Shown here: piece by piece, positions 11,810 through 37,300 of the stretch
Layout: each line of letters opens with the position of its first letter
Position numbering within the stretch: the stretch's first letter is position 1
Source of the DNA: Bacteroidia bacterium
GTDB taxonomy: Bacteria; Bacteroidota; Bacteroidia; UBA4408
DNA: 41,211 nucleotides
Reading direction: 5' to 3'
Assembly: GCA_020845635.1 (NCBI GenBank)
Contig: JADLFI010000010.1
Span: 1 to 41,211, forward strand
Program-made: the position numbers and the translations under genes
The notes under the pieces: generated by a model
Databases searched by the model: none
The model's input: only the letters and a program-made list of their open reading frames with translations
What the model was told of the DNA's origin: nothing

Positions 11810-14800
11810 ATGAAAAATTATTTCATAAAATTAATTTTCGTTTCACTTCTTCTATTTGTATTTACATCAGTTTCATACGCACAGCCTTGTGCCGGAACTA
11901 GCAGTTTTACAGTAAATCTACAACCTGTAGGTGGGGGTTATGCTCCGGGTACGGTAGTAACCTATTGCTTTACTCTTAATAGCTGGTCAATGAATGGGTC
12001 GAACTGGTTTGAAGGGTTCAATATTCAACTTGGGCCGGGATGGTTGCCCGGCTCTATCACACCAGTTACCCCCCCAACTAATTTTGGAGGTGGCGGTGGT
12101 CAATGGGTTTGGGTGTCTAATACATTTGTTAATAATGGAGTAACTTTTGGTCCGGGCTATTTCTTTGATTTAAACAATAATGGGATAACGAATGATGATT
12201 TTGGCGATATGGGGGCAGGTCCCTGGACGATGTGTTTTAGTGTTACAGTAGGCTTTAATGTTGGTGCTTCATTAGGAGTTGGTGTAGCTACAGTCTCTGA
12301 TGGATATGCGGGATCTTGGTCAAACGGTTCGTGTAATGGTTTGAATTATAATACACTTACCCCAAATTCAATTATAGTTTTGGGTTGTGGTTCTTTAATT
12401 CCGGGAGTTGTAAATCAAATAAATGTAACTTGCAATGGAGCAAGTACAGGGAGCTTTGAAATAAGTACACAAAATGGAAATCCTCCTTTTACCTATTCTT
12501 TTCAAGGCGGTCCGTTTAACAATACCAACTCTTTTAGTGGGCTGCCGGCAGGTACTTACACTGTAACCATTCAAGATGCCAATAATTGTACTGTTCCTTT
12601 TCCGGTAACTATTACACAGCCTCCTAATCCTTTAAGTGTTACTCTCATATTTAAAAACAATGTAGGTTGTTTTGGTGGAATAAGTGGAAATTATAAAGTT
12701 ATTGGCACAGGAGGTACCGGGCCTTATCAATATTCAACAGATGGGGTTAATTTTGTTCCTGCTAATAATGGAGCTGCATTTCAAACCAATGGCTTAACAG
12801 CCGGATCCTATGATGTGTGGGTAAAAGATGCCAATGGTTGTACTGCTACTTTAAATATTATTTTAACGGAACCTCCGGCTATAACAGGTACAATAGTTTC
12901 GCAAACCAATCCTCCTTGTACAGGTCCGGGTTCGGGTAGTGTTGAGGTGGCAGGCTCAGGAGGAACACCAAATTACACCTATTCTTTAAATGGAGGTCCA
13001 ATACAGTTAACAGGAGTTTTTAATAATTTAACTCCCGGCCCTTACACCATCACCATTAAAGATGCCAATAATTGCAGTACTACGGTTAACATAAATATAC
13101 TTTCACCATCTTCTACAACTACAGGCTCCGTAGTGTCGCAAACTAATATTGATTGTTTTGGAGCTTCCACAGGCTCCTTAACTCTACAAGGAAGTAATGG
13201 AAATCCGCCATATACCTTTTCTTTAAATGGAGGTCCTTTTTCAGCCGGCCCTTTTAATAATTTACCGGCAGGTTTATACAACGTAGTTGTTCAAGAGGCA
13301 AATGGATGTACAGGCAGTTTCACGGCTACCCTTACCGAGCCTACTGCCCTTAATTTAACTATTGCATCGCAAACAAATATTGATTGTTTTGGAGCTTCAA
13401 CAGGTGCCGTTACTCTCAGTGCCAATGGAGGTACAGCTCCATATACATACAGTTTTGGGGCTACTCAAAACAATACCGGTGCTTTTAATAATCTTTCGGC
13501 CGGAAACGCTACTTTCAATGTTACTGACGATCATGGTTGTACCGCTTCTGTAAGTACCAATATTACTCAACCGGCAACGGGGGTAGGAGCAAATATTACT
13601 ACCCAAAATAATGTACTTTGTTTGGGAACTAATACCGGAAGCTTTACAATACAAGGAAATAGCGGAAATGCACCTTATTCATACACCTTAAATGGGGTTA
13701 CCAATACAACCGGGACTTTTACGGCATTAGGAGCCGGAATCTACAATGTTACCGTTACCGATGCTACGGGGTGTACATTTGTTCAAGCTGTTAACTTAAC
13801 TTCGCCTAATGCCCTTTCGGTTTCAATAGGCAATCAAACTAATGTAAACTGCTTTGGAGGAAATAACGGAAGTGTTACTATTAATGCCAGCAGCGGAACC
13901 AATCCATATACCTTTACCTTAGGAGGGACTACAAACGCCACAGGGGTGTTTAATAATCTTGTGGCCGGAAATTACAATGTTGTTGTTAGCGACCAAAACG
14001 GATGTACCTTAACCCAGGCGGTTGTTATAACAGAGCCTGCCGCTGCCCTCTCATCTTCAATTACAACACAACAAAATGTTTCTTGTTTTGGAGGCAGCAA
14101 TGGTTCGGTTACCGTTACCGCTGCAAATGGTACTGCCCCATATAGCTATCAATTAGGCGGAACCAACAATACAACCGGTGTCTTTAATAATTTAAGTGCA
14201 GGCGCATATACAGTTTCTATTACCGATAATAACGGTTGTTTGTTTAACCAGAATATTACTATTACCGAGCCTAATGCAGCCTTGGGTGCAATTACTCAAA
14301 ACATAGTAAGCGTAAATTGTTTTGGAGGAAATGACGGACAAATACAGGTAAGTGGTACAGGAGGTACAGCTCCATATAGTTATAGCCTTGGAGGTGTAAA
14401 TAATACCACCGGAACTTTCAGCGGATTAAGTGCAGGCAATTTTAATATTAATTTAACCGACAACAACGGATGTACTTTTGTGTATCCTATAGCAATAACA
14501 CAGCCGGCTTCTGCACTTAGTGCTACAATTGCCAATCAAACTAATGTAACTTGTTATAATGGTTCTAATGGTTCAGTTACCATTAACGCGGCAGGCGGCA
14601 CACCAAATTATCTGTATGGAATAAGTGGTACAACATTTACCAACAATAATACCATTCCAGGTTTCTCAGCAGGGAATTATACTGTAGTGGTTCAAGATAA
14701 TAACAACTGTACGGCATCAGTAAACGTTAACATTACACAACCCTTGGTTCCTATCAGTGCCACCGTTAACTCAACAACCGATGTATTATGCTTTGGCAAT

Positions 14801-16216
14801 AATACCGGTGCAGCCTCTGTTACTGCCATAAACGGAACCGCACCTTATAGTTATACCTTAGGAGCAACCACTAATAGTACCGGAAATTTCAGCAATTTAA
14901 ATGCAGGTAATTTAACTGTAAATATTACCGATAATAATGGTTGTGTAGGAATAGTTAACCTAACTATTAACCAGCCGGCATCAGCCTTAACTGCGGTTAT
15001 ACAAAATGCCGGTAATCCATTATGTAATGGCTCAACCAATGGCTCGGCTACAGTTTTGGCAGGAGGCGGAACTGCCCCATACAGTTATTCATGGAATACT
15101 AATCCGGTACAAAATAATGCTCAAGCTTCAAATTTAGGTGCCGGCAATTATACAGTAACAGTTACTGATGCCAATTTGTGTATGACCACTACAAATGTTA
15201 CTTTAACCGAGCCTAACTTTCAACTTAATACTAATCCGCAGTACGTTGTTTGTAGTGGCGAGCAGGTAACACTAGCAGCCACTTCGCTTGATGGTGCTGC
15301 TCCGGTTACTTATTCATGGACAAATGTGGCTAATGGCTCTGTTTTAACCGGAAGCCCTGTAAATATTTCTCCAACCTCAAGTGTTGCCTTTACCGTTGTA
15401 GCTACTGATGCAAATGGATGTAATACTGCTGCCGCCAATGTAAATGTTACAGTAAACCCCGCACCGGTGGCCTCTTTTACCGAAGATGTAAAAGAAGGTT
15501 GCCAGCCCCTTTGTGTAACCTTTAATACCACTTCGGGCGGAGCCGGATACTCTTGGCAATGGGATTTTGGTGACACACATACAGGCGTGGGACAGAATCC
15601 GGTAAACTGTTTTCAAAATGATGGACTATTTACTGTTTCATTAACAGTTATTTCTCCTAACGGTTGTTCTAATACTTTACAAAAAAATGATTTAATTACG
15701 GTGCTTCGCTCACCTAAAGCACATTTTACAACCGATCCTAAAGAAACTACCTTGTCAAACCCAACTATTAATTTTAGCAATCAATCTATTGGTGCCGAAA
15801 GCTATTTATGGCAATTTGGCGACAGAACAACATCCACTTTATTTCAGCCCGAACATGATTATTTGGAGGCTCGGGAGTATTGCATAAGGCTAATTGCAAA
15901 GAATGATTTTGGGTGTACCGATTCTGTTAAGGAATGTGTAAACATTAAGCCCGATTTTACCATTTTTGTTCCTAACACTTTTACCCCTAATTCTGACGGT
16001 TTAAATGATGTTTTTATGCCAATTATGCAATCCGTTCAGGAGTATGAAATTAAAATTTACAATCGTTGGGGAATAGTAGTTTTTAACTCTAACAATCCCT
16101 CATTTGGTTGGGACGGAGCAGGGCAACCGCAAGGCGCTTTTAATTACTTTATTCAGTTGAAAACCTATACCGGAGAAGAAAAAATTTATACCGGTAGTGT
16201 TACCTTGTATCGCTAA
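11810..16216 (+). CDS. secreted SprB-repeat/PKD adhesin-like protein with T9SS type-B sorting domain
   Basis: This is a 1468-residue surface protein. The signal peptide is residues 1-24 (LIFVSLLLFVFTSVSYA). Residues ~25-195 form a unique Gly/Trp-rich domain. About twelve SprB repeats of ~75 residues follow (about 200-1135; each with C-F-G-...-G-S, G-APYSYTLGG, GVFNNLSAGNYTV, D-NGCT and ITEP). Then come an Ig-like segment (about 1136-1217), two PKD domains (about 1218-1298 with WDFGD; about 1299-1380 with WQFGD) and the gliding-motility-associated C-terminal domain (FTPNSDGLNDVF ... YNRWGIVVF ... GWDG ... YFIQL ... GSVTLYR, 1383-1468). That last domain is the type-B signal for type IX secretion. 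By analogy with SprB of Flavobacterium johnsoniae, such proteins act as cell-surface adhesins; actual gliding is not shown here. It has no sequence link to the upstream array. Confidence 0.93.
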   Translation: MKNYFIKLIFVSLLLFVFTSVSYAQPCAGTSSFTVNLQPVGGGYAPGTVVTYCFTLNSWSMNGSNWFEGFNIQLGPGWLPGSITPVTPPTNFGGGGGQWVWVSNTFVNNGVTFGPGYFFDLNNNGITNDDFGDMGAGPWTMCFSVTVGFNVGASLGVGVATVSDGYAGSWSNGSCNGLNYNTLTPNSIIVLGCGSLIPGVVNQINVTCNGASTGSFEISTQNGNPPFTYSFQGGPFNNTNSFSGLPAGTYTVTIQDANNCTVPFPVTITQPPNPLSVTLIFKNNVGCFGGISGNYKVIGTGGTGPYQYSTDGVNFVPANNGAAFQTNGLTAGSYDVWVKDANGCTATLNIILTEPPAITGTIVSQTNPPCTGPGSGSVEVAGSGGTPNYTYSLNGGPIQLTGVFNNLTPGPYTITIKDANNCSTTVNINILSPSSTTTGSVVSQTNIDCFGASTGSLTLQGSNGNPPYTFSLNGGPFSAGPFNNLPAGLYNVVVQEANGCTGSFTATLTEPTALNLTIASQTNIDCFGASTGAVTLSANGGTAPYTYSFGATQNNTGAFNNLSAGNATFNVTDDHGCTASVSTNITQPATGVGANITTQNNVLCLGTNTGSFTIQGNSGNAPYSYTLNGVTNTTGTFTALGAGIYNVTVTDATGCTFVQAVNLTSPNALSVSIGNQTNVNCFGGNNGSVTINASSGTNPYTFTLGGTTNATGVFNNLVAGNYNVVVSDQNGCTLTQAVVITEPAAALSSSITTQQNVSCFGGSNGSVTVTAANGTAPYSYQLGGTNNTTGVFNNLSAGAYTVSITDNNGCLFNQNITITEPNAALGAITQNIVSVNCFGGNDGQIQVSGTGGTAPYSYSLGGVNNTTGTFSGLSAGNFNINLTDNNGCTFVYPIAITQPASALSATIANQTNVTCYNGSNGSVTINAAGGTPNYLYGISGTTFTNNNTIPGFSAGNYTVVVQDNNNCTASVNVNITQPLVPISATVNSTTDVLCFGNNTGAASVTAINGTAPYSYTLGATTNSTGNFSNLNAGNLTVNITDNNGCVGIVNLTINQPASALTAVIQNAGNPLCNGSTNGSATVLAGGGTAPYSYSWNTNPVQNNAQASNLGAGNYTVTVTDANLCMTTTNVTLTEPNFQLNTNPQYVVCSGEQVTLAATSLDGAAPVTYSWTNVANGSVLTGSPVNISPTSSVAFTVVATDANGCNTAAANVNVTVNPAPVASFTEDVKEGCQPLCVTFNTTSGGAGYSWQWDFGDTHTGVGQNPVNCFQNDGLFTVSLTVISPNGCSNTLQKNDLITVLRSPKAHFTTDPKETTLSNPTINFSNQSIGAESYLWQFGDRTTSTLFQPEHDYLEAREYCIRLIAKNDFGCTDSVKECVNIKPDFTIFVPNTFTPNSDGLNDVFMPIMQSVQEYEIKIYNRWGIVVFNSNNPSFGWDGAGQPQGAFNYFIQLKTYTGEEKIYTGSVTLYR
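12409..15215 (+). repeat. tandem ~225-bp SprB-type coding repeats (about 12 units)
   Basis: This is an in-frame array inside the adhesin gene. Units of ~225 bp encode ~75 residues, each with two conserved cysteines (one near the start in C-F-G, one near the end in NGC) and the terminal ITEP/ITQP. Neighbouring units share short identical DNA stretches (for example CAAACTAATATTGATTGTTT in units 4 and 5), but most are diverged, so the array is fairly old rather than freshly amplified. Confidence 0.85.
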
Positions 16217-16943: not shown

Positions 16944-17309
16944 ATGCAAGGAAATTTTTATGACTATTTGCCAATAGCTCTTACTTTTTTAGTAGCTGCG
17001 GGTTTTGTTGTAACCACTATGGTGGTTACCCATATATTAGGCCCCAACAGGAAATCTAAAATTAAACTTAATACTTTTGAATGTGGTATTGAATCAAAAG
17101 GAAACGCCCGTATGCCATTTAGTGTAAAATATTTTTTAGTGGCCATTCTTTTTGTGTTATTTGATGTGGAAGTAATTTTTATGTATCCATGGGCCGTTAA
17201 CTTTAAGTCTCTGGGCTTGTTTGGCTTTGTTGAGATGTTTATATTTATGGGATTGTTTCTTACAGGTTTTTACTACATTGTAAAGAAAGGTGCCTTAAAC
17301 TGGGAATAA
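16944..17309 (+). CDS. nuoA: NADH-quinone oxidoreductase subunit A
   Basis: This 121-residue membrane subunit of complex I has three transmembrane helices (about 7-30, 63-85, 92-113). Conserved features are the loop LNTFECGIESKGNARMPFSVKYFLVAILF with its Cys (switchable in the family) and FDVEVIFMYPWA, whose acidic residues line the quinone-site region. It is the first gene of the nuo operon, followed 69 nt later by nuoB. Length and motifs are standard. Confidence 0.97.
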   Translation: MQGNFYDYLPIALTFLVAAGFVVTTMVVTHILGPNRKSKIKLNTFECGIESKGNARMPFSVKYFLVAILFVLFDVEVIFMYPWAVNFKSLGLFGFVEMFIFMGLFLTGFYYIVKKGALNWE

Positions 17310-17378
17310 TTTTCCTTCTTTCACATTTTAGACTACTAAGGAAAACAATTCTAACCTCAAATTTTAATAAGTTTTACT

Positions 17379-17936
17379 ATGTCAGAAATTAATAAGCCTA
17401 ATTATAATATAGCTAATAAGCCCGATGGGATTGAAGGGGAAGGCTATTTTCTTACCACTTTAGACCAAGCAGTTGGATTAGCAAGAAAAAACTCCTTATG
17501 GCCATTGCCTTTTGCCACATCGTGCTGTGGTATTGAGTTTATGGCACTTATGGCAGCACATTACGATTTGGCACGCTTTGGAAGTGAGCGTTTAAGTTTC
17601 TCTCCGCGTCAGGCCGATTTGTTAATGGTAATGGGAACTATAGCCAAGAAAATGGGGCCTATTTTACGTCAGGTTTACGAGCAAATGGCCGAACCAAAAT
17701 GGGTGCTTTGTATGGGGGCATGTGCCTCTTCGGGCGGAATTTTCGATTCATACAGTGTGTTACAAGGCATTGACCGGATTATTCCTGTAGATGTTTATGT
17801 GCCGGGCTGCCCACCAAGGCCAGAGCAGGTTATTGAAGGTGTTTTACACATACAAAAATTGGCTTCAAGCGAATCTTTACGCAAAAGAGACTCAAAAGAA
17901 TACAAAGCAATGCTAAACGAATACGGAATAAAATGA
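17379..17936 (+). CDS. nuoB: NADH-quinone oxidoreductase subunit B
   Basis: This 185-residue peripheral subunit carries the terminal [4Fe-4S] cluster N2, which passes electrons to quinone. The four ligands are visible: Cys49-Cys50 (SCCGIEFM), Cys115 (MGACASSGG) and Cys144 (VPGCPPRPE). Helix and strand patterns are typical, and the C-terminus carries a short Lys/Arg-rich extension (RKRDSKEYKAM). The stop codon overlaps the nuoC start (ATGA), so the two are translationally coupled. Confidence 0.98.
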   Translation: MSEINKPNYNIANKPDGIEGEGYFLTTLDQAVGLARKNSLWPLPFATSCCGIEFMALMAAHYDLARFGSERLSFSPRQADLLMVMGTIAKKMGPILRQVYEQMAEPKWVLCMGACASSGGIFDSYSVLQGIDRIIPVDVYVPGCPPRPEQVIEGVLHIQKLASSESLRKRDSKEYKAMLNEYGIK

Positions 17937-18448
17937 TGCTCATATCTCAATCAGTACAAGAAAAATTAATCAATGAAATCAATGAACATTTTCAAGACGC
18001 CCTTGTAAAACATGAGGTGTTGTACGATATGTTTACCATTACACTTAAAAGAGAAGCTGTTGCTCCACTTATTAGGCATTTATATAACCATGAAGAGTTT
18101 AAGTTTAAATTTTTAACTAACTTATGCGGGCTGCATTATCCCAACCAAAAAAATCAGGAATTAGGTTTAATGTATCAGTTACATAGTTTTGAAAACAATT
18201 ACCGCATCAGAATAAAAACTTTTTTCCCTATCAACGATCCGGTAATAGCTACGGTTACAGATATTTTTAATGCTGCCAATTGGATGGAACGCCAAGAGTA
18301 CGATTTTTTCGGGATAGAATTTAAAGGGCATCCAAATTTGAAACGCATTTTGAATGTTGATGATATGACTATTTTTCCGATGAGAAAGGAATACCCTGCC
18401 GAAGATCAGGCAAGAAAAGATAAAAACGATATTATGTTTGGTCGCTAA
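17933..18448 (+). CDS. nuoC: NADH-quinone oxidoreductase subunit C
   Basis: This 171-residue protein is the 30-kDa-type subunit of the complex I arm next to NuoD. The signature region is NWMERQEYDFFGIEFKGHPN then LKRILNVDDM (about 120-150), followed by FPMRKEYPAED. It starts with ATGATG, so either of two adjacent codons may be used; the first overlaps the nuoB stop by 4 nt. NuoC and NuoD are separate here, not fused as in Escherichia coli. Confidence 0.95.
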   Translation: MMLISQSVQEKLINEINEHFQDALVKHEVLYDMFTITLKREAVAPLIRHLYNHEEFKFKFLTNLCGLHYPNQKNQELGLMYQLHSFENNYRIRIKTFFPINDPVIATVTDIFNAANWMERQEYDFFGIEFKGHPNLKRILNVDDMTIFPMRKEYPAEDQARKDKNDIMFGR

Positions 18449-18464
18449 TTTTTAATTTAAGGCT

Positions 18465-19691
18465 ATGTCTAAAAAACAAACAAAAGAGATTACAGAATCA
18501 ACCATTATACTACCCGAAGATATTAAGAAGGAATATACTATTCTTAATCTCGGTCCTACCCATCCTGCTACACACGGTATTTTCCAAAATATATTAAAAA
18601 TGGATGGCGAAAAAATTGTAGAAGCAGAATCTACCGTAGGCTATATTCATCGTGCTTTTGAAAAGCTTGCCGAGCGTAAAGCATATTATCAGATTACTCC
18701 ATATACCGACCGTTTAAACTACTGTTCGGCTCCGCTTAATAATTTAGGGTGGCACATGGCAGTTGAAAAACTTATAGGTGCCGAAATTCCTAAACGTGTA
18801 CAATATATGCGTGTAATTATTATGGAGCTTGCGCGTATTATTGATCATATTATTTGCAACTCTGTAATAGGTGTTGATACAGGAGCTTTAACAGGTTTCG
18901 TTTATATGTTCCAACAGCGCGAGTTTGTGTATGATATCTTTGAAGAAATTTGCGGTGCACGTTTAACTACTAATATTGGTCGTATTGGGGGCTTTGAGCG
19001 CGATTTCTCACCAAAAGTTTGGAAAAAAATAGAGCAATTCTTAAAAGAATTTCCAAAGGTATTAGCCGAGTTTGAATCTCTTTTTGTGCGCAACCGTATT
19101 TTTATGGACAGAACTATTGGTTGTGGCGCTATCAGTGCCGAAAAAGCTTTAAGCTATGGATTTACAGGGCCAAATTTGCGAGCTACCGGTATTGATTATG
19201 ATGTAAGAGTTATGAATCCGTACTCTTCGTACGAAGACTTTGATTTTATTATTCCGGTTGGAACACAAGGCGATACTTACGACCGCTTTATGGTACGTGA
19301 AGAAGAAATGAAACAAAGCTTAAGCATTATTCGCCAAGCACTTGATAAAATGCCTGAAGGGCCTTTCCATGCCGATTTACCGGAGTTTTACTTGCCCGAA
19401 AAACAAGATGTTTACAGCAAAATGGAAGCCCTGATTTATCAATTTAAAATTGTTATGGGCGAAAATGATGTTCCGGTTGGTGAAATATACCATGCCATTG
19501 AAGCTGCCAACGGAGAGTTAGGGTTTTACATTATTAGTGACGGAGGGCGTACGCCATACAGATTACACTTCCGCAGGCCATGCTTTATTTATTATCAGGC
19601 CTATACCGAAATGATTAAAGGTGCTATGCTAAGTGATGCTATCCTTACCATGAGTAGTTTAAATGTAATTGCTGGAGAATTAGATGCTTAA
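18465..19691 (+). CDS. nuoD: NADH-quinone oxidoreductase subunit D
   Basis: This is a 408-residue homologue of the hydrogenase large subunit that forms the quinone-binding cavity with NuoB. Motifs include [12 protein letters not shown] (about 28-39, with the His loop), [59 protein letters not shown], and the end of the 49-kDa family ([25 protein letters not shown] ... IAGELDA). The start lies 16 nt after nuoC. A charged N-terminal extension ([11 protein letters not shown]) precedes the conserved part. Confidence 0.98.
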
Positions 19692-19713
19692 TAGAATATA
19701 ATATATAATTTGT

Positions 19714-20361
19714 ATGAAATTTTTTAAACCACTTTGTTTATTCTTAATTACGGCTTTACTAGCTTCATGTGGTTCTTACCGTGGCGTAACCATTGTAAAA
19801 CGAAAACATAATCCGGGCTATTATGTAAATGTTGGCAATCATAAGAGTCAGAAATTAGTTCAAAAAGAGCATAAAGAAGTTGTTTCTGCTACTAAGCAGC
19901 ATGCTAGTGATAGAACAGTTAACAATAGTAATAGTAAAAAAGAAAGTGCTGAAAGTACTGCCTTGGTAATGAATGAGACGGCAACCACAAAAACTTACCA
20001 AAAAGAAATACAGTATTTGGCATCAACCCAAAATTATATTTTACCCAATAGTATAAAGAGCCATATCACTGACAATAAACTTACAGCCCAAAAAAGTACT
20101 ACTCAAAATATCAGTCATATTGCTGCGGTAAAGCAACTTCTTAAAGCAAAGAAAGAAGCTCAAAGAGCCAAGGGCAGTACCAATACTATTGTACTGGTAA
20201 TTTTATCTTTATTCCCAATTTTGGCCTTAATAGCTATCTTTTTAAAAGACGGAAGACAAATAACTTTGAATTTTTGGGTGGATTTAATATTACATTTAAC
20301 CGTCATTGGGTATCTCATATTTGCCCTGTTGGTAGTCCTAGATATAGTTAATTTAGCATAA
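19714..20361 (+). CDS. lipoprotein with C-terminal Pmp3/YqaE-like membrane domain
   Basis: This is a 215-residue protein with an N-terminal lipobox (LLASCGS, Cys19) followed by the KRKHNPGYYVNVG motif often seen after the lipidated Cys in Bacteroidota lipoproteins of this type. A long Ser/Thr/Lys/Asn-rich spacer (about 45-145) follows. The C-terminal ~55 residues contain two hydrophobic helices around FLKDGRQITLNFWVDLILHL, which matches the Pmp3/YqaE pattern (FLKxG...NFWxxLLL). It lies between nuoD (22 nt upstream) and nuoE (19 nt downstream) in the same direction, so it is almost certainly co-transcribed with complex I. It is not a known subunit; a role as an accessory or assembly factor is speculative. 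Confidence 0.75.
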   Translation: MKFFKPLCLFLITALLASCGSYRGVTIVKRKHNPGYYVNVGNHKSQKLVQKEHKEVVSATKQHASDRTVNNSNSKKESAESTALVMNETATTKTYQKEIQYLASTQNYILPNSIKSHITDNKLTAQKSTTQNISHIAAVKQLLKAKKEAQRAKGSTNTIVLVILSLFPILALIAIFLKDGRQITLNFWVDLILHLTVIGYLIFALLVVLDIVNLA

Positions 20362-20380
20362 TAAAAAATTAAATAATACA

Positions 20381-20920
20381 ATGTCATCACAAAACACACA
20401 AGATAAAATTGCTTTTAGCGATGAAGCATTGCAACTTGTTAATAGTATCATAAAACGTTACCCTGAAGGAAAACAAAAGTCGGCTTTAATTCCTGTTTTG
20501 CACATTGCACAGGCCGAGTTTGATGGTTGGCTTAGCCCGCAAACCATGGACTATGTGGCATCATTACTAAAACTTAAACCAATTGAGGTGTATGAGGTGG
20601 CTACTTTTTATTCCATGTTTAATTTAAAACCTGCGGGCAAATGTATATTAGAAGTTTGCAAAACGGTTCCATGTTGGTTGAATGGTGCCGAAGATTTAGT
20701 AGCCTATTTAGAGAAAAAATTAGGAATTAAAACAGGTGAAACCACTGCTGATGGTATGTTTACTTTACGCACAGTAGAGTGCTTGGGTTCGTGCGGTACA
20801 GCACCTATGTTGCAATGTGGTGCCAGCTATTACGAAAATCTGACCAATGAAAAAGCTGATGCCTTGATTGATAAATTAAGAGTTGAGAACACAAGAAAAA
20901 ACTATACTGATATTATATAA
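20381..20920 (+). CDS. nuoE: NADH-quinone oxidoreductase subunit E
   Basis: This 179-residue thioredoxin-like subunit carries [2Fe-2S] cluster N1a in the NADH-oxidising module. Ligands are Cys93 and Cys98 (EVCKTVPCWLNG) and Cys134 and Cys138 (VECLGSCGTAPML). The N-terminal helical part (IIKRYPEGKQKSALIPVLHI ... YEVATFYSMF) is typical. It forms the electron-input module with NuoF, whose gene follows after 52 nt. Confidence 0.97.
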   Translation: MSSQNTQDKIAFSDEALQLVNSIIKRYPEGKQKSALIPVLHIAQAEFDGWLSPQTMDYVASLLKLKPIEVYEVATFYSMFNLKPAGKCILEVCKTVPCWLNGAEDLVAYLEKKLGIKTGETTADGMFTLRTVECLGSCGTAPMLQCGASYYENLTNEKADALIDKLRVENTRKNYTDII

Positions 20921-20972
20921 CCGATTAGAAAAACTTGTTTAATCAGATTAAATATCTGCAATAAAGAAAAAA

Positions 20973-22307
20973 ATGGGTAAAAAATTATTACTTGAACATA
21001 TAAATGTAGAAGGAATACAATCACTTGAAGTGTATCGCAAGATGGGTGGATATGCTTCGGTTGAGAAAGCAATAAAAACAATGACTCCTGATGAGGTTGT
21101 TGAAGAAGTAAAAAAATCAGGACTTAGAGGAAGGGGAGGTGCCGGTTTCCCTACGGGCATGAAATGGAGTTTTATTGCCAAGCCCCAGGGAGTACCTCGT
21201 TATTTAGTATGTAATGCAGACGAAAGCGAACCCGGTACTTTCAAAGACAGATATTTGATGGAAAAAATTCCTCACTCTTTAATTGAGGGAATGATTACCT
21301 CTAGTTATGCCTTAGGAGCCAATACATCATACATTTACATAAGAGGTGAGTATTTTTATGTATCGCGTATTTTAGAACGTGCCATTGCCGAGGCCTATGC
21401 CGCAGGTTGGTTAGGAAAAAATATATTAGGTTCAGGTTATGATCTTGATTTATATGTACATGTAGGTGCCGGAGCTTATATATGTGGTGAAGAAACCGCC
21501 TTGCTGGAATCTTTGGAAGGGAAAAGAGGTAACCCGCGTATAAAACCTCCATTTCCTGCAGTAAAAGGTCTTTACGGCTCCCCAACCGTGGTTAACAATG
21601 TTGAAACTATTGCTACAGTTTCGCATATTGTAAATATGGGTGGCGAGGAGTACGCTAAAATTGGAATTGGACGCAGCACCGGAACAAAATTAATTTCGGC
21701 AGGCGGCAATATTAATAAGCCGGGGGTTTATGAGATTGAATTAGGAGTTCCGGTGGAAGAGTTTATTTTTTCTGATGAATATTGTGGTGGTATTCCTAAT
21801 GGTCGTAAGTTGAAGGCATGCGTACCCGGAGGGTCATCTGTTCCTATCTTACCGGCTCATTTATTGCTTAAAACAGCCAAAAACGAAAGTCGCTTAATGT
21901 CTTACGAATCGCTCTCTGATGGTGGTTTTGAATCCGGTTCTATGTTAGGTTCAGGTGGGTTTATTGTGTATGACGACCGCGCTTGCATTGTTAGAAGCAC
22001 TTATAATTTTAGTCATTTTTATCGCCATGAAAGCTGCGGTCAATGTAGCCCTTGTCGGGAAGGAACCAGTTGGATGGAAAAGATATTGAAAGAAATAGAA
22101 TATGGTCGTGGCACTATGGACGATATTGACTTATTGTGGGATATTCAGGGCAATATTGAAGGAAAAACTATTTGTCCTTTAGGTGATGCTGCTGCATGGC
22201 CTGTAGCTGCCGCCATACGTCACTTCCGCCACGAGTTTGAGTATCATGTTAAGTATCCTGAAAAAGTAAAGGATATTAAGCATACACCACCGCCAATGCC
22301 GGTGTAA
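20973..22307 (+). CDS. nuoF: NADH-quinone oxidoreductase subunit F
   Basis: This 444-residue subunit binds NADH and FMN and holds [4Fe-4S] cluster N3. The Gly-rich loop is GLRGRGGAGFPTGMKW (50-65), then CNADESEPGTFKDR, the FMN/NADH segment GAGAYICGEETALLESLEGK, and the cluster ligands SCGQCSPCREGT (about 353-364) with TICPLGDAAAWP (about 399-410). All expected residues are visible. It is the last complex I gene here: the next genes on this strand are absent and a convergent gene follows, so nuoG and the membrane subunits H-N must be elsewhere if present. No terminator stem is seen in the 60 bp after the stop. Confidence 0.98.
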   Translation: MGKKLLLEHINVEGIQSLEVYRKMGGYASVEKAIKTMTPDEVVEEVKKSGLRGRGGAGFPTGMKWSFIAKPQGVPRYLVCNADESEPGTFKDRYLMEKIPHSLIEGMITSSYALGANTSYIYIRGEYFYVSRILERAIAEAYAAGWLGKNILGSGYDLDLYVHVGAGAYICGEETALLESLEGKRGNPRIKPPFPAVKGLYGSPTVVNNVETIATVSHIVNMGGEEYAKIGIGRSTGTKLISAGGNINKPGVYEIELGVPVEEFIFSDEYCGGIPNGRKLKACVPGGSSVPILPAHLLLKTAKNESRLMSYESLSDGGFESGSMLGSGGFIVYDDRACIVRSTYNFSHFYRHESCGQCSPCREGTSWMEKILKEIEYGRGTMDDIDLLWDIQGNIEGKTICPLGDAAAWPVAAAIRHFRHEFEYHVKYPEKVKDIKHTPPPMPV

Positions 22308-22878: not shown

Positions 22879-23364
22879 TCAGGTTTTACCGTCTTTAATA
22901 TCTTTTAATACCCGTGTAACTGCATCATTTTCAAACCCCTTACCATAGAGGAATTGATATGTTTTTTGCTCTTCCTCCCACGATAATTTTTTGCTTTGCT
23001 TACCCCATTTCTTTACAATAAGTTGCTTTATACAATTCTCATAATCTTTTTCAGAAATTTGAGCCAAAGCTTTTTTGATACAATAGTCTGATATTTGATG
23101 CATTTTCAAGGCTTGTTTTATCTTTATTTTTCCCCATTTTTTAATTCTAAACTTGCCCCCTGCAAGTGTCAAGGCAAAACGTTCTTCATTTATATAATTA
23201 TGGCTAATCAGTTCAGCAATCAATATCTCAACTTCTTTGCGCGCCACGCCCCACTCATACAATTTATTGCGTACTTCTTGTTGCGATCGCTCCTGATAGA
23301 CACAATATTTTTGTGCTTTGAGCCATGCGGCTTGGTAATCAGTTAGCGTTTTTTTCTCATTCAT
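22879..23364 (-). CDS. recX: regulatory protein RecX
   Basis: This 161-residue protein is built of the three-helix RecX repeats: AWLKAQKYCVYQERSQQEVRNKLYEWGV, then IAELISHNYINEERFALTLAGGKFRIKKWGKIKIKQAL (with the typical NEERFA...KFRxKKWG signature), then QLIVKKWGK ... KTYQFLYGKGFENDAVTRVL. RecX binds RecA filaments and limits RecA activity. The start codon overlaps the stop of the sulfatase gene by one base (TGATG), so the two are coupled. recA itself is not in the window. Confidence 0.93.
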   Translation of the reverse strand: MNEKKTLTDYQAAWLKAQKYCVYQERSQQEVRNKLYEWGVARKEVEILIAELISHNYINEERFALTLAGGKFRIKKWGKIKIKQALKMHQISDYCIKKALAQISEKDYENCIKQLIVKKWGKQSKKLSWEEEQKTYQFLYGKGFENDAVTRVLKDIKDGKT

Positions 23365-27863: not shown

Positions 27864-28346
27864 GCTTTACTTCACTTTTTCCGTTAGTTTCTCTATCATT
27901 CCCCCTTAATGAAAGCAAGTTTTTTACCAGGCTATAAGTGCAAGGTATAAGAATACGTATTTAACGCGGTTTCAATATTATTCCTCAATTATTACTTTGC
28001 TTTTTCTTGTTTGCCAACTTGTATCTATTCCCGTTTTATAACTTTAGTTGAAATCATTCTTAACTCCATTCATACAGCAATATAACAGCCATAGAAATGC
28101 CTGAACCTATCATTTATTTACGCTAGCAATACCTCTTGCTTTTTTTGTTGTTAATTCTGTATTAAATTTTTATGAAGTTTGTAAAAGCTAATAAAAAATT
28201 GTTTATTTTTGTCTATGATAATTTTGTTTTTATCATGCCTTTTTAATATTTGAAATTAATTATTTGATTTTTTTAAATACACATTTAGTTGTTTTAGCAT
28301 GATATCTTTACAATCTCCCTATAAAAAACAATCAAACCTTTATACA
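27864..28346. other. intergenic region before the giant gene, no gene seen
   Basis: About 480 bp, AT-rich, with no frame, RNA or repeat that I can support. TATCTTTA (28303-28310) is one base from the -7 consensus and lies 37 bp before the giant gene's ATG, but no matching -33 element is clear. Confidence 0.4.
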
Positions 28347-31300
28347 ATGAAACAGTTTTACTATTTCAAATTTACGGCATTGGTTTTTCTTTTTAGCTTA
28401 TTGGCTTTAAATACAAATGCCCAAATTTCTATCCCTAACACCACCCCCGTTACTGAAAATTTTGATGCAATGGGTACAGGAACAAGCCTTCCTTCAAACT
28501 GGAGAATAAGGGAAAAGAACGGTACCATCACTTGGGGTGCCGGGGTTACCTCAACCACGCAAGCAGCACACAGCGGATCGCCTACAGCAGGCGGAACCTA
28601 TAACTGGGGTACAAGCTCCTCAGAGCGTGCCGTGGGAGCTATGACTTCCGGATCCTTTGCTTCACCCAATACTTTAATGGCATACTACGAGAATACTAAT
28701 TCAAATGACATTACTGCCTTGAGTGTTAGCTACAAATTAGAAAGATATCGTATTAATTCCGCTAATGCCTCAGTAACTTTTTACTACTCTACCAATGGTA
28801 CAAGTTGGACTAATGTGACAGCCGGAGATATTTCCACATCTGACTTACCCACCGGTTCAAGTTCGTATGACTTTAGCCCATCGGGTACACCTTCAAGCAG
28901 CAATTGTGGGGTAATTACTAAATCAGGAATTAACATTACAGGGTTAAATATTACTAACGGTAGCCCAATATACTTGGCCTGGCAGTTAAATACAACCGGA
29001 TCAAACTCACAAGGTATTGGAATAGACGATGTAAGTGTAACGGCTACTTTTTCCTCAGGGAGTTTTCATACTGTTAATTTTACAGGTAGCTCTTCTGATT
29101 TTGATAATAGTGAAAAATTCAGTGCTGCCGCCAACAATACCGATTACTACATTACTTTTGACCAGGAGTATTTGTATTTAGGGGCTTTCCGCACCTCAGG
29201 TTCTTTTGGCAGTAGCGATAACTTTGCCGCGTACATTGACACCGACCCGCGCAGCAACCCTACCGGTGATGGAAATGGAACAACCGCAGGTCGTAATTAT
29301 AACAGTGTTACACCTACTTTGCCTTTCCGTGCCGATTATACCTCATATACCGAACAGAGCTATACAGACCCTCTGTATAGATACAACGGAAGTTGGTCGA
29401 GTACCGGAAATACACCTACTGTATATACTAGTTCTACCTCACGCGAGGTACGCATAGCTTTAAAAGATTTGGGAAATCCGGCTTCGGTTTATATTACTTT
29501 ATGGATGGGCTATAGCGGTGGTAACTTCTCTAATGCACCGGGTACTGATGTTTCGGCATCTTCAACACCAACATTTACAGGTTTTTTTGGTAGTTTCCCG
29601 ATATACAAAGACGGCATCAACCCCGTTACTTATCGTAGTCAGAATACTTCTACTGCCAGTGGAGGAGGTACGGCTATAAGCGACTTAACCTTATCGTCAA
29701 GTGGCAACATTGCAGGCGATTATGGTGATATAACCCTTAGCAGTAGTGCCGTGGGTACGGTTTCGGTTACCCATGCCTCGTTTACCGGTTCTCTTACCCT
29801 TAACGGAACTTCAACAGTTGCCTTAGGTACAAATAGCTTAAGTGTTGGGGGTCGTGGAGTAGGTGGTACTGCCGGACAAATTGTAATGGATAATACTTCA
29901 GCCACCTCCATTAATGGTACTTCAACAGCAGGTAAGGTTAGTTTCTTGGGTGATGGTTTAATAAAAGGAACAAATACAGCACGTACCTTTGGTACCAACT
30001 CTACCGTAACTATTGCCGGTGGTGTTGACTTTACGAGTTCGGTTACTAATATTAACGGAAATCTTCAAATTAATGCTAATGGATATGTCAATACCAATGC
30101 TCCAACCTATGGAAGCAGCTCAACTCTAATTTATAATACGGGCAGTTCATACACTGCCGGCCTCGAGTGGAAAACTAATGCCACTTCAGGTCAAGGTGTT
30201 CCAAATCATGTTTTAATTGGTAATGGTGTAAATACTACCTTAAGCTTTGGCTCCTCATCACAGTATCGCTTTGCTTCCGGAAACGTTACCATTAGTGCAT
30301 CTTCGGGTCTTACTTTATCATCAGCCTCGGGGGGCGATTTAAAGTTGGGCGGTAACTTTACCAATAATGGAACTTTTACCCACAATACTCGCGCGGTATT
30401 TCTTGACGGTACTGCTGCTCAGAGCCTATCCGGAACACTTAACGGTTCGGGAACAACTAATTTTTTCCCCTATTTATTTATAGGCAACACTTCGGCTGCA
30501 GTTAGCTGTGGTGTAAGTATAAATGTTGGTACCAGCAGTATAAGTAGTTTTACGGTACCGGCTTCGGGTGGTGTTTATCAGCAAACTGCCGGAACATTTA
30601 CCTTAGTAAGTGGTGCTTTAGGTACAGTCAATGGTATTTTCCGCAATTCGGGAGCTACTATTACTAACAGTGGTACTATGACCATAGCCAATGGTGCTAC
30701 TTATGACCATAATATGAATGGTGGAAGTTTGGGTACTTGTACTTGGTCGGCAGGTTCTACATGCTTGATTACCGGTACAACCAATAACGCACCGGGTAAT
30801 TTAAATCAATCGTTTTCTGATTTTACTTGGAATACAGCGGGCATGACTACCGGAGTTAACCTAAGTGGGAATCTTAACGGAACAAATGTAGGTCGTGATT
30901 TTAATGTTGTAAGTACCAATGGATATGTTTTAGGTCTTACTGCTACCTCTTCTTTAGGACTTACCATAGGTAGAGATTTAAATATAAGTGGAGGGAATTT
31001 GACAGTAAACACCGGAACTAACTCTACGAGTCCTTCATTAACAGTAACCGGCAACACCAATATTTCGGGGGGGGCATTGCTTGTAAATAGCGGTTCTACA
31101 TCTACCGGAACGGTGTCTTACACTTCTACCGTTAATTTAAACATCAGTTTAAGTGGTAGCTTTACAGGAAACACAGGGACAAATACCGGAGGGGGAGTAT
31201 CTATAAACGTTAGTGGGACTTTAAATAACAGCTCAAGCGCTGCAACTTCGTTTGCATTGAACGCTTCAGCTAAAACAAGTGTAACAGCAACAATTACAGG

Positions 31301-34300
31301 ATTATTTACTCATTCGGGTACAGGTAATGGCTATGTGCAATCGGCCGGAACAGGAACTTCTACCTTAAATTGTAATGGAGGCTTTACACTTAGTAACGGC
31401 ACATTCTCGGTAGCTAAAGATTGTAGCTCCGGTACCGGAAATATGAATATTGCCGATAATAAAACCATAACACTTAGCAGTGGTACGTTTAATATTGCTT
31501 CGGCTACATCCGGAACAGTAACCGGAGTGCTAAATGTGGCCACCAATACACCAAGTCCGGTGGCAACTACCGGTTCCTTAACTTTAAATGGTGCCACTTT
31601 AAACATTTCAACGGGATCCGGCTCAGGTGCAGTGGGAACATTAAATATGTATGCCGATTTAAATTTAACCAGTGGAAATATGGCACACACCTCGGGTTCT
31701 TCTACCGTAAACTTTAGAGGAGTAGGAACTTCTATAACAACTCCACACCCACAAAATGTTTCGCAAAGTACAGCCACTGTTTCAGGAACTATTGCGTTTA
31801 ATGTTGGTGTGTCAGGTCCATCATATACTTTATTAAATTTAGGCAGTAATGTAGATTTTGGCTCAGGAAGTTCAACTACTGTTTATTCAGGTTCTTTCTT
31901 AAATTTTGCTACCAATTTATTAAGTGGATATAATTTTACTCAAAATGCCGGGGGTAATTTAATTACGGCTCATGTTGATGGTATTAATACTATTGCTACC
32001 GGAAACGTTGGCTCGCTTAGAACAACCAATACCCGAACCATGCATGCTACCGATGGGCAGTTTATTTATAATGGTACCTCAGCTCAGGTTACCGGAACCG
32101 CTGTTACCAATGCTTTTGCTTTATCAGTATTTAATAGCTCAGGAGTTTCATTATCAGTTCCTTTAACTATTAAAGGCGGAGGAGCTGTATATTTAGATTT
32201 ATCAGGTCAACACGGTAAATTGTATTTAGGTAATAATAATCTTACTTTAGGTGCTTCGGCCTCAATTGTTGGATATTCGGCCACCGATTATATAGTAACC
32301 AACGGAACAGGAATGTTGAGACAAACTGTAGGAGGTTCAACCATAACTTTTCCTGTAGGAAATTCGGCCTACAATCCTTTAAAACTTGCTAACAGTGCTA
32401 CCAGTGATGTTTATGGAGTTAGCGTGGTTGATGGAGTTTCTACTCCGGCTGCTTACGATGACACCAAATTGATTAATAGATATTGGAAAGTAAGCGAAAA
32501 CACTGCCGGAGGAAGTACCATTACTGTCGATGCACAATACAACACTGGCGAAGAAAATGTAAACTTTGCCGCAGGAGTAACTCTAAAAATGGGATTACAT
32601 AATGGCACTGTATGGACAACAGTAGGAGCCACAAGCGCAGGTGCAGGTCCTTATGTCGTTACTAATAGTTCTAGTTTTTCTCCATCTGTGGCTAATTACA
32701 CTTTGGGTGTAGGTAAAGATGATGGCTTTTTAAACCCTTCAGTTACTTATACCTGGAATGGGGCAATTAGTAACGATTGGGGATTAAATACCAACTGGAC
32801 GCCTAATGGTGTTCCAAGTATTTCTGATAATGTTATTATTCCAACTGCTGCAGGTTATACTAATGAACTATTAGTGAGCGGTTCGCGCTCGGCAACTGAT
32901 TTTACTGTAAATGGCACCGGTAAGTTTACTATGGCAGGTTCGTCAGATTTAACCATTGCCGGTGATTTCACTTATGCTAGTACCGGATTATCATCTTTTA
33001 ATTGTACCAGTACATTAAATATAGTGGCAACTACCTCACAAAATATCCCGGCACTTAATTACGGGAATTTGAACTTAACCGGTGGTGCAAGAGTTTTAGC
33101 CAATAGTGGAACTATTGGTATTTGCGGTTCATATACCCCGGGGTCATCTATGACTGTTACCGGAAGCACCATTAACTATAATGGTTACGGAGCGCAAACT
33201 ATTACCGCTACTAATTACAATAATCTAACTATTAGTAATAACCGAAGTGGAGCTGCTATTAGTGAACCTGCAGGAACTATTGAAGTAGCAGGTGTTTTTG
33301 ATGTTTCTACTTTAAGTTCATTTACCTCTAGTATAAATTCAGCTAGTATCTTTGATTTTACTTCAGCAAGCAGCCAAACAATTCCGGCTTTCTTCTATGG
33401 TCAGTTAAATAACTCCGGAAATGGAGCCAGAACATGGGCTTCATCGGGTGTTATAGATATTGCTCAAGGTTTTACACCAACAACTGCTACCAATACTATT
33501 ACGGGCAGTACGGTTAGATACTCCAATACCGATGCGGTAGCCTGGAACTTAACCAACTTTACTACTAATGTGGCCAACAGACATTACAATAATCTGGAGA
33601 TAGTAGGTGGGGCTAGCACTACCTGGAAATTAGTTTCGGGACTTAACTTGGGATGTACCGGAAACTTTAGTTTAACCGGTGCGGGTACACTTACCATAGC
33701 TACTAACAGCACTGCTAATACAATGTATGTTGATGGAGACTTAGCTTTAAGCGGAACCGGAAATATTATTGTGTCGAACAACACCAATGCAGGTATTGTT
33801 GGAACACTTACCGTTACCGGAAACTCAACCATTAGTAATGGCGCTCTAACCTGTGTTGGTTCATTATCAAACACTACTGTTCAGGGCAACTTTAATACCA
33901 ATAATTTAACTATTTCGGGCAGCGGTGTTTTAGGGCTTGATGCCGCTTCAAATACTGCCAACGCAAGTGTTGTCGTAAACGGAAATTTTAGTATGACAAG
34001 TACTGCTACCAATGCGGTTAACTTTGGATCGGGAACAAATAATGCCAATAATACAATTGCTATTAAAGGAAATTTCTCAAAATCAGGCACAGGTACAATT
34101 GGACTTTCAGGAACATATAATGCCACAGCTATTTTCAGATTTAATGGCACAGGTACGCAAACATACTCGTATGCAGGAGCCGCACAAACAGGAGGCGGTT
34201 ATACTCTTGAGGCCGGAAGCACTCTACAATTATTATCAAACTTAACTTCGGCAAGCAGCAGTAATGCTAACCCTATTAATATTGCCGGAACTTTAGATTG

Positions 34301-37300
34301 TCAATCTTATGCAGTAGTTGGTTCAAACGCTTCTAATACCTTTGCTTTGAATGCTACCGGAACACTTATCATTAACAGTGCCAGCGGTATTGCCGGTGTG
34401 GTTACTTCTTATACGGCTACACCGACATTTGCTTCGGGTGCTTCCTTTGAGTTTACCGGAACCAACGTAAATACAGGTGCTTCAGGTTTTACAGATATTG
34501 TTTTTGCAAAGGCTTATACTATAACTTGGAAAGGTTCAACCAGCTTAACTCTCGATAAATCGTGGAACTTAAATGCTTTTAACTTTACCAATAACGGTCT
34601 AGTGTATATGGGCAATTATGATATCAATATACCATCTGCAGCAGGCGGACTTACCGGATCAGGTTTTGGAGTAAGTAAAATGTTTGTTACTAACGGAACG
34701 GGAGTGTTGAATAGAGCCGTATTGAATAGTGGTGTAGGCTTACCGTTTACCTGGCCTATAGGCGAAAATACCGGAACTACAGAATATTCACCTGTAACTG
34801 TAAATGGTATAGCCGGTGCCGGAATTAACGGAACAGTAGGCTTTAGAGTAGTTGATGGAGTACATCCGAGCATGAGCCCGGCAGTTAGTTATGTTAGTCG
34901 CTACTGGCCAATCACCGTAACAGGATTTATTGCAGGTTATTCTCTATCTAACCTAACTTTCACATACACCGCTGGCGATATAGTGGTAGGTCCTGAAACG
35001 TCATTAAAAGGAAATGTTTATAGTCCTGCCAGTGGAGGTTATTGGACTCAACTAGCCTCATCATCGGCCGGTTCTAATGTGTTAACTATTACTTCAGGAG
35101 TTGCCGGTTCGTTTATGCCAACTCCGGGTACTTATGATATTACCGGAAGAATAGATGTTCCTGTTTATTATCAATCGGTAGCTACAGGCAACTGGTCTAA
35201 TGTTAGCACTTGGGAAGTATCAAGCGACCCTACCTTTGTTTCGCCTCCGGGAACTACCCCGGCAGTGGCTCCAACCCACCTCAATAGTACAGGAATATTT
35301 ATCAGAAATGGGCATACTGTTACAATTAATAGTAACACTACTGCAGATGAGTTGGTAATTAACTCAGGCGGTACTCTGGAAGTTACCAATAACTCACTTA
35401 CCATCAATAGTGGTACAGGTACCGATATGACCATAGATGCAGGAGGTACTTTTTTAATGAACTCTTCAAGCAACAATGCTTTGATTGTAAACTCAAGCGC
35501 TACAGTATTAGTGAATGGTTTGATGAAACAGCAAGGCTCCGGAAGTCCGGATGTAACTTTTAACGGTACTGTTACCGTAAGCTCTACCGGAACATACGAG
35601 CATGCTCGTAATGCAGGTATTATTCCTACCTGTACCTGGCAAAGTGGAAGTACTTGTTTAATTACCGGAATTACGAATAATGCACCAAGTGGTTTAGGAC
35701 AATCTTTCCACCATTTTACGGTTAACTCCACTTTAGGAAGTAGTGTTAATTGTTCGGGAAATTTACAAACCATTAATGGTGACTTTTCGGTTACCACTAA
35801 TCATGCAAGTTTTGGGTTTAGACTAACTACCAACGTTTCATTTACCTTAAATGTTGCTGGCGATTTAATTGTTAATAATGGCATTTTAGACATTGCCAGT
35901 AACGGTTCTGCTACGTGTGTGGTTAATGTTACCGGTAATACCACTTGTACCGGAGCTAACTCGCAAATTACCAAAACCGGAGCATCTACCGCTACTTGGA
36001 ACTTTGATGGAAACTTTACTCAAAATAGTGGAAGACTTGAGTTTAATGAAGGAGGTTCAAGTAATACTACAGTTAATTTTAAAGGCGATGTGGTAATGAA
36101 CGGTACCGTTCAGCGTACTAATGGAGGAACACATACCGTTAATTTCATTAAACCTTCAGGCACTCAAACCTGGAGTTTCGGTGGAACATCGGGTTCCGGT
36201 TTGATTAACTGGAATGTTGGTAACGGCACTTCTACCAATATTGTTAAGATGTTAACTAATGTAGCATTAAGCAGTAGTGCTCATGTATTTACGGTATTGA
36301 ATGGTGCCATATTAGATTGTGGTCCTTATGTATTATCAGGTACTAATACTTCATTTACGATTAATGCAACCGGAGGTATAAAATCAGGTAATGCCAATGG
36401 TATATATACACCTCCTACAGCCTTAGGCAGTATTCAAACCAACTCAAGAAACTTCCCGGGAACGGCTACTTATTTCTATAATGGGACATTTAACCAAACC
36501 ACCGGAAATGCCTTACCTAATACACTAGTAACTACCGGAAATATTAATATTGATAATACCGGTGCTTCGGGCGATAATACCGTAACTTTAACTAATAATA
36601 ATACTACCGTACCAACCTTTAACTTAATATCAGGCTTGTTTGCGGCAGGTACACCACAAAATTTAAATATTACCTCAGGCGGTACTGTAAATTCAACAGG
36701 AGGAGACTTTGCCACCGGATCAACAGCGGGCTTGTTGGTATTTTTGGGCAGTGGAACCTTTACGGGCAGTTGCAACCCATACAATGTAGATATAAACGGA
36801 GGTGTTGATTTTAGCAGCGGTACAGTAACCATACAAAGTGGAGGAACCTTGAAAATAAAATCAGGGGGCTATGCCAACACCAATGCACCTGCCTATGCGT
36901 CAGGCTCCACCTTGGATTACAACACAGGGGGTAACTATAACCGTTCAATAGAGTGGAGTTCCTCTTCGGGCAAGGGCTATCCTCACCACGTATTAGTAAG
37001 CAGCAGCACATTAATTCCGGCAGGTTCGGGAGGAAGCTATGCAAATACTGTATTTAAGACAGGCGGTGACCTCAGCATTAGCTCAGGCGGTAATTTGTAT
37101 ATGGATTATGGAGGCAACAATATGAATGTACCCTTAGAGATTAGTGGAGATTTGAACTTAATCGGCAACTTATCAGAGTCGGGTGCTATGGGGGGCGATA
37201 TCAATTTAAAAGGACATTGGAACAATAATGGCAGTAGCACCAACTTTTACCCTAACGGACGCGCAGTAACCTTTAGCGGAACCAGCAACCAAAATATAGG

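Follow-up and report, generated by a model that had tools for sequence, protein, structure and literature searches.

A predicted Pmp3-domain lipoprotein gene at a variable site between nuoD and nuoE in Bacteroidota

Why does a gene for a predicted lipoprotein with a Pmp3-like C-terminus lie between nuoD and nuoE, and is its product a part of complex I? The gene was found in the window analyzed here, a stretch of 41,211 nt of contig JADLFI010000010.1 from a Bacteroidia bacterium. It is an ORF of 215 codons with an ATG start and no internal stops. All three genes lie on one strand, and the gaps amount to 22 nt towards nuoD and 19 nt towards nuoE, so that the tight spacing described in an earlier note holds to the nucleotide.

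18465..19691, plus strand: nuoD, upstream flank, matched in relatives
19714..20361, plus strand: lipoprotein-Pmp3 gene, ORF of 215 aa with homologues at the same junction
20381..20920, plus strand: nuoE, downstream flank, closest to that of the same-genus genome G003 (81%)

The window protein shares 39-41% identity with four homologues from this junction; the gene is therefore not a chance ORF. The short same-strand gaps support its placement in the nuo operon and, as spacing evidence, suggest that it is probably co-transcribed with nuo, as the membership of the complex I transcript proposed earlier would imply. Between 19400 and 20600, nine sigma-70-like matches were found vs 4.9 expected (sd 2.0), one of them at 19673-19702 on the plus strand. 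Given this excess and the position of the plus-strand match, the gene may possess its own promoter. One terminator-like match, on the minus strand, was found in the same region vs 1.0 expected. The site TTTG...TANNTTTG, which we take to be the Bacteroidota promoter consensus, occurs six times elsewhere in the window and not at the lipoprotein-Pmp3 gene.

Some further features of the region were recorded. The window carries nuoA-F (16944-22307), followed by a minus-strand gene (22879-23364) and by no further nuo genes. Non-nuo genes also follow nuoF in G003 and in a second same-genus genome, G002, and ORFs resembling later nuo genes are found there in the relative G004. A repetitive protein of 1468 aa is encoded at 11810-16216; its C-terminus resembles what is presumably a T9SS type B sorting domain. 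At 28299-41210 lies a reading frame that runs past the right end of the window, with 4304 aa as its minimum length.

The window protein can be divided into the following parts.

19714..19770, plus strand: lipoprotein-type signal peptide with lipobox LASC and Cys19 (sequence pattern)
19771..20178, plus strand: polar basic spacer spanning residues 20-155 (net charge of about +14); residues 20-133 with pLDDT below 50
19798..19827, plus strand: head motif KRKHNPGYYV inside the spacer, residues 29-38 (conserved columns)
20179..20358, plus strand: divergent Pmp3 domain with two hydrophobic segments (profile comparison, hydropathy, AlphaFold helices 127-178 and 185-214 of low to medium confidence)

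The N-terminus, MKFFKPLCLFLITALLASC19, is compatible with a lipobox, and Cys19 is invariant among five aligned nuo-linked sequences, the window protein included; the Pfam lipobox model LPAM_1 gave no match to the window protein. Judged from this pattern, the protein is probably exported and lipidated at Cys19. Of the lipidated N-terminus claimed before, the signal type, the lipobox and the invariant cysteine were thus observed, with lipidation as their predicted consequence. The polar spacer between lipobox and hairpin is also present, although with about 136 residues it is longer than the roughly 100 residues first given. The AlphaFold model (two sequences) is poor, with a mean pLDDT of 48.8, and supports little beyond the predicted C-terminal helices. 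When solved structures were compared with the profile of the nuo-linked proteins, the spacer matched ribosomal protein L7 (E 0.002-0.013); these matches and a further one at E 5.7 were read as compositional chance.

Two hydrophobic segments, residues 154-180 and 187-215, were identified by hydropathy. The Pfam model of Pmp3 (PF01679) gave no match to the window protein up to E=10, and a repeat search likewise gave none. Nine C-termini of the window type were then aligned by hhalign with nineteen canonical Pmp3 C-termini, with a probability of 98.3% and an E-value of 1.1e-14 over 59 columns. Control comparisons yielded 0.13% for TM2 (two sequences only), 0.75% for DUF2752 and 0.72% for the C-terminal part of NuoA. 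A homologue from the same taxonomic family, in G006, shows the same layout with a clear Pmp3 domain (E 2.8e-15). The homologue L155, located at the same nuoD-nuoE junction, also carries a Pmp3 domain (61 bits, E 1.1e-16), and its three same-junction siblings have the window-type C-terminus. From the profile probability, the low controls and the clear domains in homologues, it follows that the hairpin belongs to the Pmp3 domain as a divergent form, so the two-helix Pmp3/YqaE-like domain read from the sequence earlier was borne out in spite of the Pfam miss. The PPLAV stretch of the family reads FPILALIA in the window protein. Bare Pmp3 proteins, in contrast, have neither a lipobox nor a long spacer.

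Membrane potential and the response to salt are the functions with which Pmp3 proteins are associated. Yeast PMP3 has been considered a membrane potential regulator, and E. coli without YqaE is sensitive to both the lack and the excess of NaCl (passages of PMC7835403). According to passages of PMC12136403, Pmp3 proteins may be monotopic and thus occupy one leaflet only, in which case a membrane-spanning hairpin would be unnecessary.

The same architecture was found in a family widespread among Bacteroidota. A profile built from three sequences matched in 104 of 395 genomes of the class (E up to 1e-4), and PF01679 matched in 107 of the same genomes, in 105 of them over the cut-off. Among the 57 family rows collected, the lipobox pattern was found in 46 and the head pattern in 49, of which L122 is a spurious match. 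Four rows (L109, L120 and two in L222) have the head without the lipobox and signal peptides that look ordinary, which means that not every member of the family has the lipid anchor. In the 44 rows with both lipobox and head, 112-136 residues (median 122, sd 7.2) separate the cysteine from the first membrane segment, a range that may be favored by the limited-length profile with which most rows were found. In 39 of these 44 rows the spacer is net positive. The membrane module varies: it is mostly Pmp3, TM2 in two L227 proteins, a below-cut-off DUF5670 in L226, and without family assignment in L228. The predicted family layout begins with a signal peptide that in most members includes a lipobox; the K-R-x-Y-x-x-G-Y head, a basic spacer and an exchangeable membrane module follow. 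The L227 proteins, which lie next to DUF2752, share the lipobox, head and spacer length of the window protein; they differ from it in their C-terminal TM2 module (PF05154) and in a region without nuo genes. DUF2752-like genes were seen at eight loci that encode head proteins with Pmp3 or TM2 modules (L205, L206, L216, L218, L223, L227, L231 and L232). The identity was confirmed in all four genes tested of these eight similar ones outside nuo, and at six of the eight loci the gene adjoins the family member, overlapping it or lying up to 26 nt away.

A phage origin of the gene was considered and rejected: a weak N-terminal match to phrog_6716 (E 6.7e-4) was absent from ten relatives at E <=0.1. 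The C-termini of several of these relatives match other PHROGs. In phage records the matches numbered five, all insignificant and over the Pmp3 part (E 5-9), and viral contigs gave none. Plasmid records were matched mainly over the Pmp3 part, and most among the matches listed are annotated as YqaE/Pmp3 family membrane protein.

If the protein served complex I generally, its gene should be expected next to nuo in relatives, as the earlier note had proposed for a tether or assembly factor spanning the periplasm. In the taxonomic family of the window, the gene occurs in two of eight genomes (G000 and G006); in G006 the homologue lies on contig C81 and nuoD on contig C172. In both visible junctions of the same genus, those of G002 and G003, nuoD and nuoE are separated by only 26 and 28 nt and the gene is absent, as it is from the junction of G004; a nuoD search in G001 found none. 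A tblastn survey with the window protein over the best 80 of 548 nuoD loci revealed a homologue in one (L080), with nuoE visible in 76 of the 80, and a very distant homologue could escape such a search. Conservation between the two genes in relatives was therefore not found, genus g25 having the gene in a minority of its junctions, and these absences speak against the proposed tether or assembly role at complex I.

Flanks of about 1.5 kb were inspected at 59 loci, of which 29 came from the family profile and 30 from searching with the Pfam Pmp3 model; the set includes bare Pmp3 proteins and counts some genes more than once. Nuo genes were found near one of these loci, L096, which is the same g25 gene as L080. 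Nuo genes were seen in none of 40 wider regions (flanks up to about 5 kb, some regions ending at contig ends) and near none of another 23 loci. Three matches came from a search of 395 genomes across the phylum: G408 and two others, L256 and L257. Nuo-linked flanks were thus seen only in the window and in genus g25 among the loci examined. Of the two observations by which the earlier note would be refuted, the first was made, as the gene does occur far from nuo; the second was not, as a further bacterial family carries the insertion between nuoD and nuoE, so that it extends beyond a single lineage.

This second occurrence was followed in the taxonomic family to which G105, the source genome of L080, belongs; the search covered 36 genomes, all of genus g25. 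Homologues of the L080 protein were found in six of them. In G105, G408, G412 and G395 the gene lies between nuoD and nuoE, in G400 the contig begins inside the gene and nuoE is next (L158, a partial, contig-edge case), and in G413 the gene lies away from nuo. In G395 (L155/L189), nuoD matches as two pieces, possibly due to a frameshift or an assembly error. The contents of 30 g25 junctions are four lipoprotein-Pmp3 genes, five genes for a protein of about 300 residues, three DUF433+DUF5615 pairs and 18 gaps of at most 124 nt. The proteins of about 300 residues (L163, L166, L170, L171 and L174) are 32-66% identical in pairwise comparison, have a signal-peptide-like start and are probably secreted; Pfam found no family in the two tested. 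The DUF433/DUF5615 pairs, one of which was tested by Pfam, are 75-96% identical among themselves. On the best nuoBCDE tree, which holds relatives only and leaves out the window, with two rows (L091 and L094) unlabelled, the junction states require 12 changes vs a shuffled-label mean of 11.5 and are thus no more clustered than at random.

Junctions of at least 250 nt were observed in 17 of 99 cases for D-E (window included), compared with 1 of 86 for A-B, 1 of 95 for B-C, 8 of 102 for C-D and 9 of 89 for E-F; a large gap may also mean that the two genes lie apart, as in L027 and L083. The difference between D-E and the other junctions pooled has a Fisher p of 0.0004, a value that overstates the strength because the loci are related, not independent, and g25 supplies much of the excess. 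No flanking repeat common to the junctions compared, as a signature of a mobile element, was found by eye. The nuoD-nuoE junction is variable, with unrelated co-directional contents, and is read here as a site of fast turnover.

Since the junction of relatives holds unrelated genes or nothing, the lipoprotein-Pmp3 gene is probably cargo and not complex I core; the unrelated co-directional genes at one site likewise suggest that it is expressed with complex I and is not a core part. With slightly better than even confidence, we consider it an accessory cargo gene in the nuoD-nuoE site, encoding an exported lipoprotein-Pmp3 membrane modulator. The anatomy suits such a modulating lipoprotein, or a tethering one, as far as a predicted layout can tell. 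In the proposed mechanism, the protein would be exported and lipidated at its N-terminal cysteine, and the lipidated head and basic spacer would position it in the envelope. The Pmp3 module would enter the inner membrane, or only the leaflet that faces the periplasm, and may alter the membrane as Pmp3 proteins do, by ion leak, membrane potential or lipid packing. Against the cargo explanation stands the fact that five of the six g25 matches to the L080 protein are at nuo and that the window, from another family, has the gene at the same junction. Together these exceed what random cargo would give, and a functional link could exist. The D-E expansion excess used for the cargo explanation comes largely from g25.

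Concerning its history rather than its function, the gene could be ancestral to both families and lost repeatedly, the observed turnover then being loss, which we regard as somewhat unlikely. In a tree of 40 rows (17 of the 57 family rows were excluded for other modules, lack of the head or short length), the nuo-linked rows group at 99/82 with one non-nuo row among them, and in a test with a second set of rows a single nuo-linked clade is not rejected (AU p 0.425). Their high divergence, seen in the identities to the window protein, also fits an old gene, as does the descent of the flanks: window nuoB, nuoC, nuoD and nuoF are closest to G002 and nuoE to G003, both of the same genus, which gives the flanks the look of vertical descent. 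In the same test, a grouping of the window protein with non-nuo f60 rows is not rejected either (p 0.144). In this second tree, with more f60 rows and the only one to include L158, the resolution is lower and L155 is placed with canonical Pmp3 rows, which means that the 40-row grouping is not firm. Ancestral presence would moreover require that most lineages of both families lost the gene, and it leaves the three different contents of one site unexplained. The gene may have been acquired by transfer, or it may be old and repeatedly lost. Transfer of nuoE together with the insert was not supported, given its closest match in same-genus G003. The nuoE of G002 (L092) is only 70% identical to that of the window, while its nuoD reaches 84% and its nuoF 89%, a possible case of nuoE replacement.

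An unlikely role is that of a general tether between inner and outer membrane, with the lipid in the outer membrane, the hairpin in the inner membrane and the spacer of about 122 residues across the periplasm; it would be compatible with cargo status. The narrow spacer length and the mostly positive charge, kept across differing modules, are compatible with a tether and give no pointer to complex I. However, the limited-length profiles may have favored this spacing, and by our own estimate a disordered chain of that length would bridge only if stretched. The four head-bearing rows without lipobox and, following the passages of PMC12136403, a Pmp3 domain confined to one leaflet also argue against it.

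Distinctly unlikely, in our assessment, is a role in complex I as an accessory subunit or assembly factor confined to certain lineages, with the hairpin on the membrane arm and the anchor and spacer at its periplasmic face. The use of the same junction in two bacterial families, on the same strand and with short gaps, speaks for it, and a precedent exists in PscF/Ric1 of Chlorobaculum tepidum (PDB 7ueb, 8gwa), an accessory subunit of the reaction-centre supercomplex (PMC9529944). PscF is also a small membrane protein of the Pmp3 family bound to an energy complex. It is embedded in the bilayer with four membrane helices in the supercomplex, according to the passages of PMC9529944 at hand, in which the name PMP3 is not used; passages of PMC12136403 name a protein in the Chlorobaculum reaction-centre structures a PMP3 protein. 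L155 matches the PscF chain 7ueb_F at E 1.6e-4, and this match, together with the precedent as far as those passages describe it, makes an association with complex I possible in principle. PscF has 58 residues and no long spacer, in contrast to the window protein, and it was matched by the sibling L155, not by the profile of the five nuo-linked proteins. Further evidence against a subunit is that nuoA-F are in order in G002 and G003 without the gene, that 79 of the best 80 nuoD loci lack a homologue, that the site is also used by unrelated genes such as the DUF433/DUF5615 pair, and that relatives are located elsewhere in their genomes. Highly doubtful is the broader idea, drawn by analogy, that Bacteroidota might reserve the site for modulators of complex I that can be exchanged for one another, with the lipoprotein-Pmp3 protein as a conditional PscF-like subunit.

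Reports on a variable nuoD-nuoE site or on the head-spacer layout of Bacteroidota were not found among the papers listed from the open-licence literature. The window protein is a divergent variant within the Pmp3 kind at an unusual variable operon site. The findings suggest that an operon encoding a conserved respiratory complex can contain an internal site with variable gene content while the nuo gene order stays intact. The Bacteroidota layout of lipobox, head, spacer of narrow length and exchangeable module is only partly captured by family databases. Binding of the protein to complex I, if it occurs, would link the Pmp3 family to a second kind of energy complex.
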